Shown in pieces: positions 20,293 to 24,380 of a stretch of DNA of 64,000 bases. The DNA lies in the NCBI RefSeq assembly GCF_019218885.1, contig NZ_JAHUWT010000001.1, forward strand, positions 248,001 through 312,000, read 5' to 3'. The first letter of the stretch is position 1; every line of letters begins with the position of its first letter. The stretch comes from Bordetella sp. BOR01. GTDB lineage: Bacteria; Pseudomonadota; Gammaproteobacteria; Burkholderiales; Burkholderiaceae_B. Made by a program: the position numbers and the translations under genes. Below the pieces are notes generated by a model. It was not told the origin of the DNA and made no database searches. It saw nothing but the letters and a program-made list of their open reading frames with translations.

Positions 20293-21684
20293 ATGAATAC
20301 GCGTACCGAAAAAGATACTTTCGGCCCCATCGAGGTACCCGCCGATCACCTGTGGGGCGCGCAGACGCAGCGCTCGCTGCAGTTCTTCGCCATTTCGACC
20401 GAACGCATGCCGGTGCCGCTGGTGGCCGCCATGGCGCGCCTGAAGCGCGCAGCCGCCAAGGTCAATGCCGAGCTGGGCGAACTGGATGGCAAGATCGCCG
20501 ACGCCATCGTGCGCGCGGCCGACGAAGTCATCGCCGGCGACTGGCCCGACGAATTCCCGCTGTCGGTCTGGCAGACGGGGTCGGGCACGCAAAGCAATAT
20601 GAACATGAACGAGGTGCTGGCCAACCGCGGCTCGGAATTGCTGGGCGGCGAACGTGGCGAAGCCCGCAAGGTGCATCCGAACGACCACGTCAATCGCGGG
20701 CAATCGTCGAACGACACGTTTCCCACGGCCATGCACGTGGCGGCGGCCCTGCAGGTCGAACATCACCTGCTGCCGGCCCTGAAGGCGCTGCGCGCCACCC
20801 TGGCGGCCAAGAGCGCGGCGTTCTACGACATCGTGAAGATCGGCCGCACCCATTTGCAGGACGCCACGCCGCTGACGCTGGGGCAGGAGCTGTCCGGCCA
20901 CGTGGCGCAGCTGGACCTGGCCGAGCAGCAGATCCGGGCCACGCTGCCGGGGCTTCATCAATTGGCCATCGGCGGCACCGCGGTGGGCACCGGGCTGAAC
21001 GCGCATCCGCAGTTCAGCGCCAAGGTGTGCGCCGAACTGGCGCACGATACGGGTTCGGCGTTCGCGTCGGCACCCAACAAGTTCCAGGCGCTGGCTTCGC
21101 ACGAAGCCCTGCTGTTCGCGCATGGGGCGCTGAAGTCGCTGGCGGCCGGCCTGATGAAGATCGCCAATGACGTGCGCTGGCTGGCCAGCGGCCCGCGTTC
21201 GGGCCTGGGCGAGATCAGCATTCCCGAGAACGAGCCGGGCAGCTCGATCATGCCGGGCAAGGTCAACCCCACGCAATGCGAAGCCATCACCATGCTGGCC
21301 GCGCAGGTCATGGGCAATGACGTGGCCATCAACATCGGGGGGGCCAGCGGCAATTTCGAGCTCAATGTGTTCAAGCCGCTGGTGATCCACAACTTCCTGC
21401 AATCGGCGCGCCTGCTGGCCGACGGCATGGCCAGCTTCGACCAGCATTGCGCGGCCGGCATCGAGCCCAACCGCGAACGCATCGCCGAACTGGTCGACCG
21501 TTCGCTGATGCTGGTGACCGCGTTGAATCCCCACATCGGCTACGACAAGGCCGCGCAGATCGCCAAGAAAGCCCACAAGGAAGGCTTGTCGCTGAAGGAT
21601 TCGGCACTGGCGTTGGGGTTTGTGACGGAGGAGCAGTTTGGCGAATGGGTGGTGCCTGGGGATATGACTAACGCTGGGCGGTGA
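20293..21684 (+). CDS. fumC: Class II fumarate hydratase
   Basis: A 463-residue iron-independent fumarase of the TCA cycle, interconverting fumarate and malate. The class signature [15 protein letters not shown] contains the catalytic Ser region; other active-site blocks are [34 protein letters not shown] and [19 protein letters not shown]. Length and motifs separate it from aspartase and argininosuccinate lyase. It stands alone on the plus strand, divergent from tsaE, and is followed by a 595-bp gene-free palindromic region. Confidence 0.96.
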
Positions 21685-21725
21685 GCGGGTTGCCTCATTG
21701 GTGGTGGAGTGGTTGGTTCTTTAGC

Positions 21726-21836
21726 GTCGGCGCGCGGGCCGGGCGGTGGCCTTGGCTTCACGGTGCCGTCCGGGCGCCCCGCGCGCCCGGGTCCGGCACC
21801 GAGGCGCCGCGGCCACCGCCCGGCCCACGCGCCGAC
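21726..21836. repeat. 111-nt near-perfect palindrome (long hairpin)
   Basis: Bases 21726-21751 and 21811-21836 are reverse complements with one mismatch over 26 bp. Inside, CGGTGCCG... pairs with ...CGGCACCG and the GGGCGC/GCGCCC arms close a CCCGC loop near 21778-21782, so the whole stretch can fold into a single long stem. It begins 42 bases after the fumC stop. No T-run follows. Confidence 0.85.
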
Positions 21837-21915
21837 TCGCGATGGTTCATCACTTGCTCATTGCTGGGACGAGCGGGGTTCTTGAGCTTCGTCGGCCTGT
21901 CCGTCTTGGAAGAAG

Positions 21916-21965
21916 AAAAAAGTGCGGGCCGCCATCGGACGCCGCCCTGCGCGGCGCCCGATGGC
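21916..21965 (-). terminator. Possible terminator for the AEC transcript (copy 1 hairpin)
   Basis: Read on the minus strand, a 15-bp stem with one mismatch and a 5-base loop (21965-21931) is followed nine bases later by TTTTTT (21921-21916). The T-run is farther from the stem than in a classic intrinsic terminator, so efficiency is uncertain. It lies about 315-365 bases past the AEC stop. Confidence 0.45.
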
Positions 21966-22105
21966 TTTCGCGCGGCGACAGGCGTGAGTTTGTCGCTAGC
22001 GCGCGTTCGTACGCCATGCGTTGTGTCAGCCGTCAGGGATGAGCGTGTCAGCAGGGTGGCCGCAGCATTACCTTCAAACACCCTTACGCACGTCACCGCC
22101 CGAAT

Positions 22106-22155
22106 GGCCATCCAAGTCGCGCAGGGCGACTTGGATGGCCGGCCCATACTTTTTT
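22106..22155 (+). terminator. Possible terminator for the fumC transcript (copy 2 hairpin)
   Basis: A perfect 15-bp stem (22106-22120 with 22126-22140) around a GCAGG loop is followed nine bases later by TTTTTT (22150-22155). It lies about 420-470 bases past the fumC stop and faces the mirror-image structure at 21916-21965. As there, the T-run is set back from the stem. Confidence 0.5.
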
Positions 22156-22279
22156 CTTCTGGAGCGATGGCGCCCCATCACCAGGCAAGAACCCCGTCCG
22201 CCTCGGGGCGCCCGGACGGCACCGTGAAGCCGAGACAGGCCCGCCCCCACGACCGGACGCCAAAAGAACTACCCTCCCA

Positions 22280-23206
22280 TTACCCAGCAACAGCCAGCCA
22301 CGCAGGTATCGTCACCACCGACATCAACGTCCCCAACGACACCAGCAACGCCACCATGCGTCCATCCCCCCCCATCCGCATGGCGAGGACGTAGGTGGCG
22401 GATGCGGTGGGCAGGGCGGCGAAGAGCAGCAGCATGCGCGATTCGGCCAGCGGCAGGCCGAACAGGCGGGCCGCGCCCAGGGCGGCCAGGGGCAGCACCA
22501 GCAGCTTGACGGCCAGGATCCAGGCGATCAGGCGGCCATGGCCCCGGCCGCCTTGCCATGACAGGCTGGCGCCCACGCACAGGATGCCCAGCGCCAGCGA
22601 TGCACCGCCCAGGCGCGCCAGCACGGTGTCGATCGGGCCGGGCAATTGCAGGCCGGCCAGGTTGCCGGCCAGGCCCAGCAGCGTGGCCATGAGCAGCGGG
22701 TTGCGCAGCAGTTCGCGCAGCAGGTTGCTGCCGCCGTGGCGTGCCAGGCTGTAGACCGCCACGATATTGGCGATGGGGACGGCAAAGCCGACGATCAGCG
22801 CCATGGTGGTCTGGCCGTGCGCGCCGCCCAGGCTGACCGCCAGCGCCAGCCCGATATATGTGTTGAAGCGGTAGCCGCACTGTGCCGCCGAGGCCAGCGC
22901 CAATGGCTGGGCGCGCAGGGCCAGGCCGCCCAGCCAGGCCAGCGCGACGCCGGCGGCCACGACCGCGGCCGTGGCCTGCAGCAGCAACAAGGCGCTGCCG
23001 GCGCTGATGGGGGTGCGCAAAATGGCCTGGAACAGCATGGCCGGGAACAGCACGAAATACACCATGCGTTCCAGGCCGGCGAAGAACTCGCGATTGAAAC
23101 CCAGTTTGTGGCGCAGCAGCCAGCCCAGGGCGACCAGCAGGAAATCCGGCAAGACCAGCAGAGCAACCGACATGAAAATTGTGAAAAGTTGGGGAAAATA
23201 CCGCAT
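22280..23206 (-). CDS. AEC-family (auxin efflux carrier type) permease
   Basis: A 308-residue integral membrane protein with about ten hydrophobic segments in two repeats. Family-type stretches are VYFVLFPAMLFQAILRTPI (helix 2 region), CGYRFNTYIGLALAVSLGG and LFAALPTASATYVLAMRMGGDG near the C-terminus, with the polar break typical of the BART fold. Bacterial members include MdcF malonate and other carboxylate carriers; the substrate here is unknown. Start is 23206 or ATG 23173 (MSVALL); neither has a clear ribosome-binding site. Divergent from the Bug receptor at 23397. Confidence 0.9.
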   Translation of the reverse strand: MRYFPQLFTIFMSVALLVLPDFLLVALGWLLRHKLGFNREFFAGLERMVYFVLFPAMLFQAILRTPISAGSALLLLQATAAVVAAGVALAWLGGLALRAQPLALASAAQCGYRFNTYIGLALAVSLGGAHGQTTMALIVGFAVPIANIVAVYSLARHGGSNLLRELLRNPLLMATLLGLAGNLAGLQLPGPIDTVLARLGGASLALGILCVGASLSWQGGRGHGRLIAWILAVKLLVLPLAALGAARLFGLPLAESRMLLLFAALPTASATYVLAMRMGGDGRMVALLVSLGTLMSVVTIPAWLAVAG

Positions 23207-23396
23207 ATTTCGGCCGCACCGGGCGGCCGTTTTGCTGCTATTCTCCCCGAATTCGGCAGAGCATGTGCGCCATAAGCACGCTGGATTTCATATACTTCGC
23301 TCGCCTGCTTTTGCAGCGATCGGCTTATCGGCGGTTCGCTGAAGCCTGCATCATCGGCTCCCATACGGGGGGCCCGCACCTGGAGGAAATACAACA

Positions 23397-24380
23397 ATGA
23401 AGATCAAAGCACGTACCTTGGCCTCGGCCATTGCGTTGGCGACCGGCCTGGCGGCCACATCCGTTGCCGCCGCTGCCGACTTTCCCAGCAAGCCGATCCG
23501 CGTGATCGTGCCGTTCGCGCCAGGCGGTTCCACTGACATCATCGCGCGCCTGGTCACCCAGCGCATGAGCCAGGAACTGGGCCAGCCCATGGTCGTCGAG
23601 AACAAGGGCGGCGCCGGCGGCGCGATCGGGGCAGCCGAAGCTGCCCGTGCCGAACCCGATGGCTATACGCTGTCGATCGCCACCGTGTCGACCATGGCCG
23701 TGAACTCGGCGTGCCGTCCCAAAGATCTGCCCTACGATCCCATCAAGGACTTCCAGCCGGTCACCAATTTCGCCAACACCGCCAACGTGGTGTCGGTGAA
23801 TCCCAAGTTCCCGGCCAAGGATTTCAAGGGCTTCCTGGAAGAACTGAAGAAGAACCCTGGCAAGTATTCGTACGGCAGCTCGGGCACGTGCGGCGTGCTG
23901 CACCTGATGGGCGAGTCGTTCAAGATCGCCACCGGTACCGATATCGTGCATGTGCCCTACAAGGGTTCGGGCCCGGCCGTGGCCGACGCTGTCGGCGGCC
24001 AGATCGAGATCCTGTTCGACAACCTGCCGTCGTCCATGCCGCAGATCCAGGCCGGCAAGCTGCGCGCCATGGCCATCGCATGGCCCGAGCGCATCGACAC
24101 CATCAAAGACGTGCCTACCTTCAAAGAGGCTGGCTACCCGCAGTTGAACCAGCCGGTGTGGTATGGCCTGTTGGCTCCCAAGGGCACGCCGATGGACATC
24201 GTGAACAAGCTGCGCGATGCCGCCGTGGTGGCCCTGAAAGACCCGAAGGTCATCAAGGTGCTCGACGAGCAGGGTTCGGCACCGTCGGGTAATACGCCGG
24301 AAGAGTTCGCCAAGGAAATTCAAGAGCAATACGACTGGGCGAAGGACATCGTCAAGAAGAGCAACATCACGCTCAACTAA
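23397..24380 (+). CDS. Bug-family (TctC-type) periplasmic solute receptor
   Basis: A complete 327-residue receptor with a signal peptide (MKIKARTLASAIALATGLAATSVAAA) and the family opening FPSKPIRVIVPFAPGGSTDIIARLVTQRMS, then ENKGGAGGAIGAAEAARAEPDGYTL. GGAGGAAA-type GGAGG stands before the ATG. It is unusual in having cysteines in two binding-site loops (NSACRPKDLPYD and GSSGTCGVLHLMGE). A strong intrinsic terminator follows at 24429, so it is monocistronic, while a LysR regulator converges from the right. Confidence 0.94.
   Translation: MKIKARTLASAIALATGLAATSVAAAADFPSKPIRVIVPFAPGGSTDIIARLVTQRMSQELGQPMVVENKGGAGGAIGAAEAARAEPDGYTLSIATVSTMAVNSACRPKDLPYDPIKDFQPVTNFANTANVVSVNPKFPAKDFKGFLEELKKNPGKYSYGSSGTCGVLHLMGESFKIATGTDIVHVPYKGSGPAVADAVGGQIEILFDNLPSSMPQIQAGKLRAMAIAWPERIDTIKDVPTFKEAGYPQLNQPVWYGLLAPKGTPMDIVNKLRDAAVVALKDPKVIKVLDEQGSAPSGNTPEEFAKEIQEQYDWAKDIVKKSNITLN

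Follow-up and report, generated by a model that had tools for sequence, protein, structure and literature searches.

A dispersed palindromic repeat family in Bordetella that docks behind stop codons

The gap between the fumarase C gene (fumC) and an AEC-type membrane transporter gene of Bordetella sp. BOR01 holds one copy of a dispersed palindromic family that multiplies and does not code for protein. Each half of the element forms a unit, with its end repeat docked about 27 nt past a stop codon, and two units placed back to back occupy the gap between converging genes. We describe the spread of this family, its architecture, its docking, the covariation of its hairpins, and its gain and loss among related genomes. 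Tentatively, we prefer to read the element as a mobile barrier to transcription from both sides; the alternative of a passenger that prefers 3' ends is nearly as likely and explains the spread and the docking almost as well.

Structure of the copy between fumC and the AEC-type gene

The window is a stretch of 64,000 nucleotides (contig NZ_JAHUWT010000001.1, positions 248,001 to 312,000), in which fumC (20293..21684, + strand; Pfam Lyase_1 and FumaraseC_C) lies to the left of the element and the transporter gene (22280..23206, - strand; Pfam Mem_trans) to the right, both with their 3' ends toward it. Hairpin C is represented by covariance model R1 (36 sequences) and hairpin A by model R2 (27 sequences). 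The left half begins with the end repeat GGTTCTTTAGCGTCG (21715..21729, +; family consensus GGTTCTTCTGGCGTCG), followed by an intact hairpin A of 110 nt (21726..21836, +; 115.8 bits with R2), which consists of a variable, covarying outer stem and a conserved imperfect core, GGCTTCACGG...GAGGCGCC. Motif B (CGGGGTTCTTG, 21874..21884, +), an A-rich tract that reads as a T tract on the - strand (21910..21922, +), and hairpin C (21931..21965, 75.9 bits with R1 on the - strand) complete this half. Across a variable centre (21966..22105), the right half presents hairpin C with a perfect 15-bp stem and the loop GCAGG (22106..22140, +; 74.8 bits with R1), a T tract (TTTTTTCTTCT, 22150..22160, +), motif B (CAAGAACCCCG, 22186..22196, -), a remnant of hairpin A comprising a single core arm (22204..22234, -; only 18.1 bits), and an end repeat that is an imperfect inverse of the left one (22255..22270, -; contig place C11:270255-270270, 3 mismatches). 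The copy as a whole has the signature AS+ C- C+, or A C C with the right A broken.

The original prediction, which described two facing copies of four modules (A to D) between 21754 and 22231, is borne out for every module. Its A arms (21751-21781 and 22204-22234) match over 31 nt with 97% complementarity and form part of the 110-nt hairpin A, and its B motifs pair over 11 nt at 100%. Its module C falls within a longer inverted pair (21911-21953/22118-22160, 77%), and its D hairpins, at 21931-21965 (93%) and 22106-22140 (100%), each have a loop of 5. By coordinates, B and C stand 26 nt apart in one copy and 25 nt in the other, and C adjoins D in both. The element itself is real, but its full span is larger than predicted, about 21715-22270 with the end repeats. 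The roughly 85 extra bases noted in the first copy are mostly the second arm of hairpin A, and appear as an excess because the right half lost one hairpin A arm. Exact inverted matches in the 595-nt gap extend to 28 nt, whereas none of 500 dinucleotide shuffles exceeds 22. Folded as RNA, the whole gap reaches z = -9.3; for hairpin A alone, the values are z = -8.8 on one strand and -9.3 on the other.

The gap is non-coding, as had been proposed. A 237-aa open reading frame over it has no Pfam match, which led us to reject a decayed protein gene; in the consensus of the copies of genome G005, the longest open stretch is 122 codons. A known RNA family was rejected on Rfam scans, which gave no match at E<=1 at window positions 20500-23500 and, at six loci, two weak miRNA-model matches below the gathering score and outside the element. 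Plasmid or phage cargo was rejected as well, the window copy having no match in plasmid and phage collections at the sensitivities used. A canonical terminator, in which a GC hairpin is directly followed by a U run, was rejected on a scan of window positions 21600-22400 that found 0. The literature matches listed contain no description of the element family.

Spread of the family

Other copies exist in the same genome (G000), where a DNA search returned 25 matching pieces, counting the query and both strands of the palindrome. Window aside, 16 of 21 fetched stretches carry A or C hairpins, and the other five have end-repeat matches with no A or C match. The family also extends beyond this genome: R1 matches all nine genomes of the genus, with 13, 20, 20, 42, 9, 73, 6, 12 and 6 matches in G000 to G008, respectively (150 candidates scored per genome), and R2 likewise matches all nine. 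Within the taxonomic family, R1 matches 21 of 200 genomes: besides the nine, these are two from g6, nine from g4 and one from g28; in the order sample, it matches 2 of 300, the genome studied here and G013 of the same family. R2 matches 6 of 121 genomes in the family sample, five of the genus and, weakly, G010. Three stretches from outside Bordetella among 16 (Streptantibioticus, a Rhodocyclaceae MAG and a Planctomycetaceae MAG) were taken as chance matches.

Several C hairpins of G005 lie at contig ends (e.g. C4:354, C10:19, C11:257 and C15:62), and the breaks in that assembly are probably due to the expanded family. On the single contig of G001, the 11 fetched element loci leave 2.24-3.84 Mb empty, and a chromosomal bias is possible.

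Architecture across loci

In its full form, the element joins two inverted copies of a two-hairpin unit into a dimer. The unit runs from the end repeat through hairpin A, motif B, an A/T tract and hairpin C to the variable centre, beyond which the mirror image follows. Across the 78 loci with matches, the order A+ C- C+ A- holds without exception. The inverted dimer, which had been taken as a local event in this gap, is instead the normal form of the family; the related proposal of a discrete, duplicated and inverted unit, perhaps a non-autonomous mobile or regulatory one, fits the dispersed copies and empty sites. Both A and both C hairpins occur in 29 of the 78 loci, including L178, and the others show a half or a single module, in part because the alignment excluded weak A matches (the best 150 of 162 were aligned, and 97 were kept after removal of the lower-scoring opposite-strand match per hairpin), so that some of the weaker A copies are absent from the 78 signatures. 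Two adjacent elements lie at L218. At L178 (G001:C1:895500-902300), extra C- hairpins sit in the centre, two of them 327 bp apart (3352, 3679).

The core of hairpin A occurs in a short type (135-nt model) and a long type (about 180). In two species pairs (L184/L221 and L193/L211), the core type agrees between copies of matching place and side, which indicates that copies can persist long. Concerted evolution was considered and dropped, as core type tracks locus and side in these pairs. At the right side of L185/L206 the core type differs, and at two loci G007 has a long core where others have a short one; core replacement thus also occurs.

Position relative to genes

In G000-G003, G006 and G007, a gene 3' end lies beside the end repeat of 59 of 78 A hairpins and a 5' end beside nine, while ten have neither, that is, no gene end within 250 nt. 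The 3' ends lie -2 to 119 nt from the first position of the A model (median 27), and the 5' ends 49 to 238 nt. Against the window background, where 19 of 40 gap-facing gene ends are 3', the docking rate of 59/68 gives p = 2e-11, with the qualification that orthologous loci are not independent. The G005 hairpins are divided among eight at a 3' end, one at a 5' end and ten with neither (n = 19); the home-made gene caller was trained without G005, and it found no gene for 10 of these 19 ends. As a first pass of the caller miscalled some neighbours (e.g. at L179), the docking count used a second rule. Both neighbours were called for 73 of 76 clusters, giving 40 convergent, 15 ++, 11 -+ and 7 -- arrangements, compared with 9 convergent among 44 neighbour pairs in the window. 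The tails between stop codon and element (n = 50) contain 47% G and 17% C when the sense strand is read, against 33% G and 30% C in 59 convergent control tails and 31% G and 37% C in 62 others. A short copy with both end repeats at L158 (G000:C22:1218454-1218599) lies between divergently called genes and is an exception to 3'-end docking.

These positions bear on a role in mRNA stability, by which hairpin A behind the stop codon would block 3' exonucleases. Hairpin A is the first structure past the stop codon, at a median distance of 27 nt, and that of the window copy folds at -112.6 kcal/mol; such a stabiliser would leave hairpin C, the T tract, the mirror pairing and the strand of the outer-stem G.U pairs unexplained, and we regard it as quite unlikely.

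Covariation and strand of the hairpins

The stems of hairpin C differ in sequence between copies yet remain paired. In 118 matches (111 distinct rows, aligned by fitting to the model itself), 97.2% of cells are paired, as opposed to 66.6% when shuffled and 31-41% when slid, and the covariation is 0.749 versus 0.178. Plain MAFFT alignments give the same picture for hairpin C, with double changes in 11 of 16 pairs, and double changes in 21 of 45 pairs of hairpin A. Among orthologous copies, from the closest to the most distant bin, hairpin A has 14, 65 and 13 double paired changes where 1.9, 15.2 and 3.1 are expected if both sides change independently (A pairs below 0.70 identity left out), and hairpin C has 2, 8 and 132 where 0.3, 1.0 and 50.9 are expected; in another tally, pairs below 0.72 are shown but kept out of the totals.

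Template switching between the inverted arms at replication, a mutational process rather than selection, would also keep the variable stems perfect. According to PMC8794818, it can create and maintain hairpins, and both the excess of orthologous double changes over independence and the scarcity of G.U intermediates are in its favour. Against it, the ratio of double to single changes in hairpin A is 14:13 at identity >=0.85 and 65:38 at 0.75-0.85, and in hairpin C 2:4, then 8:3. The smaller share of doubles in the closest pairs is as stepwise compensation predicts, although the numbers are small. Furthermore, correction between arms would erase the T.C and A.A mismatches of the A core, which are retained in 27 of 27 aligned short-core copies. 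We therefore consider template switching improbable.

The choice between G.U and A.C favours the strand running from centre to end, by 67 to 21 in the outer stems of A and by 33 to 11 in C. Identical pair rows were counted once and the first C pair, mostly U.G in model direction, was omitted; for C, the alignment is fitted to its model. The rows are related to one another. In the A core, one wobble pair on the opposite strand is invariant (27/27) and another nearly so (23/27), which weakens the single-strand argument, and the centre-to-end direction as the relevant strand is suggestive only. A TTT run begins 8-19 nt past hairpin C in 101 of 118 copies, and 17 have no such run. Support is weak at best for an alternative hairpin, GCNGGGC/GCCCNGC, immediately ahead of the T tract: the motif occurs in 63 of 118 C copies, the combinations are A-T 26, A-C 17, T-C 10, T-T 4, A-G 3, T-G 2 and G-C 1, and the A/T by T/C table gives a Fisher p of 0.06.

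Gain, loss and possible mobility

Copies sit between the same flanking genes in two to five species. In the fumC gap, compared in 13 genomes, the element is present whole or half in five of the nine species of the genus: both halves in G000, G001 and G007, the fumC-side half in G003, and the AEC-side half in G006. There is no model match in the gap of G002, G004, G005, G008, G011, G013, G016 and G017; by eye, G011 and G017 show a plain hairpin+T terminator there, and G002 shows REP-like GGTGTC palindromes. The G005 copy at L134 occupies about 970 bp. Seven relatives have 59-99 bp between the matched flanks, which in G008 are on different contigs. The G003 copy at L201 takes up about 680 bp, as against 57 bp in G001 and 49 bp in G004, where neither the element nor a terminator is visible by eye, indicating that the element is not needed at that locus. 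In G000, L201 carries a decayed remnant of the element, G002 (161 bp) and G006 have GGTGTC palindromes there, G005 has 320 bp, and G007 and G008 do not have the flanks side by side. One of the G005 insertions precedes a gene start.

The empty sites that the original prediction had proposed to look for are thus found in relatives, at the fumC gap, L134 and L201. Target duplications, sought alongside, did not appear: the junctions of the eight full G005 copies have no direct match longer than 3 nt. These copies are 5-10% divergent, so old insertions could have lost the duplication.

Such gains and losses are what would be expected of a non-autonomous mobile element, MITE-like or REP-like, with no host function, whose machinery prefers the G-rich 3' flanks of genes and whose hairpins would serve its own mobilisation as single-stranded or cruciform DNA. 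We hold this to be a serious, if uncertain, possibility. G005 has 73 C hairpins and 882-bp forms, its eight full copies being 89.5-94.9% identical; seven relatives have short element-free gaps; presence, absence and half copies occur in one and the same gap; the G000 remnant has decayed, and five of 21 G000 stretches retain end-repeat matches only; and the strongly G-rich tail could be a target. Terminal inverted repeats and empty sites in relatives are both found, as in MITEs, but the eight G005 copies have no target-site duplication, and the loci examined revealed no linked transposase or autonomous copy (PF01797 was the only family searched). The core type common to L184/L221 and to L193/L211 also speaks against a mere passenger, and the 3'-end docking and mirror symmetry exceed random insertion.

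It is very improbable that the element is the REP or REPIN of a resident RAYT (Y1_Tnp). Six of the nine genomes have one Y1_Tnp gene each, but there is no match in G003 and G005, which have the most C hairpins, or in G008. All six Y1_Tnp loci carry GGTGTCTGACACC-type (GGTGTC) palindromes on both flanks, with no hairpin A match and one weak partial C match (E 0.05). We rejected RAYT REP identity on these grounds, the flanks being without A and the gene missing where copies abound. At these loci (L234-L239), GGTGTCTGACACC and GGTGTCAGGCACC palindromes flank the single RAYT-like gene on both sides and are likely its REPs; at L236 (G000), they form a tandem array with a period of about 117 bp. Of 80 stretches fetched from around elements, 30 likewise contain palindromes of the GGTGTCTGACACC type.

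Discussion

From the order, strand and composition of the modules, we infer that the pair may act as a two-way barrier. A polymerase coming from the opposite gene would meet hairpin C and its U-rich tract, then hairpin A, and after that a C-rich, G-poor tail; it would terminate or stall before antisense RNA over the guarded gene is made. Each unit would guard the gene to which it docks against polymerase from the other side. The unit may spread through some trans-acting activity, and would be tolerated or kept where it insulates gene ends.

Several observations are consistent with such a barrier. The units dock at 3' ends (59/78), their clusters are convergent in 40 of 73 cases against 9 of 44 in the window, and the order A+ C- C+ A- is invariable in 78 loci. 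Hairpin C remains paired (97.2% vs 66.6%), double paired changes exceed independence (in A, 14 vs 1.9 and 65 vs 15.2), and a TTT run follows hairpin C at 8-19 nt in 101 of 118 copies. On the incoming strand, the tail is 47% C and 17% G (controls 33% C and 30% G; 31% C and 37% G), and the variable outer stems tolerate G.U on that strand (67 vs 21 in A, 33 vs 11 in C). At fumC, genomes without the element have the hairpin+T terminator (G011, G017) or the REP-like palindromes (G002) seen by eye. Against the barrier, the scan for terminators came up empty for the window copy and the T tract stands 8-19 nt off the stem, a TTT run is missing from 17 of 118 C copies, and G001 and G004 at L201 have neither element nor visible terminator. 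Nine A hairpins lie at 5' ends, 33 of 73 clusters were called non-convergent, and one G005 insertion is upstream of a gene start. The A core wobbles are on the opposite strand (27/27, 23/27), and G.U intermediates are few.

When palindromes are dispersed at the ends of genes, they are generally described as small REPs. REP, BIME and REPIN sequences are RAYT-linked intergenic palindromes near 3' ends, present in many copies and in inverted pairs; the element resembles them in position, copy number and pairing, but is much larger, has two unlike hairpins, end repeats and a docking distance, and has no RAYT link. Correia elements (CREE/NEMIS) and other MITEs have end inverted repeats, are non-coding, fold into hairpins and are dispersed, as is the case here. 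The element differs from them in that no target duplication was found, in the mirror order of two hairpin types, and in its highly variable stems. Like intrinsic (bidirectional) terminators, it combines a hairpin with a U-rich tract between converging genes; unlike them, its T tract is set off by 8-19 nt, and it belongs to a dispersed homologous family with a second conserved hairpin. PMC1590033 and PMC2267715 describe, in classical Bordetella, Bor repeats of 26-30 bp and a Bor-1 that measures 117 bp in B. bronchiseptica; both Bor-1 and Bor-2 are given there as intergenic. By description only, these repeats share the bacterial group with the element and are predicted to fold.

At its fullest, the barrier reading would make the element a self-spreading two-way insulator: a mobile palindromic dimer with one unit behind each stop codon of the converging genes that keeps antisense transcription from running in. 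It would be a selfish element that has been domesticated to form the boundary at gene ends. This extended version is possible, though doubtful. The family is suited to asking whether bacterial genes obtain their boundaries from mobile repeats, and its useful traits are a large ordered unit, covariation, a narrow distance to the stop codon, mirrored pairs, expansion in one species, and empty sites elsewhere. Its many copies also serve as natural replicates with which the contributions of selection and template switching to the evolution of hairpins can be told apart.
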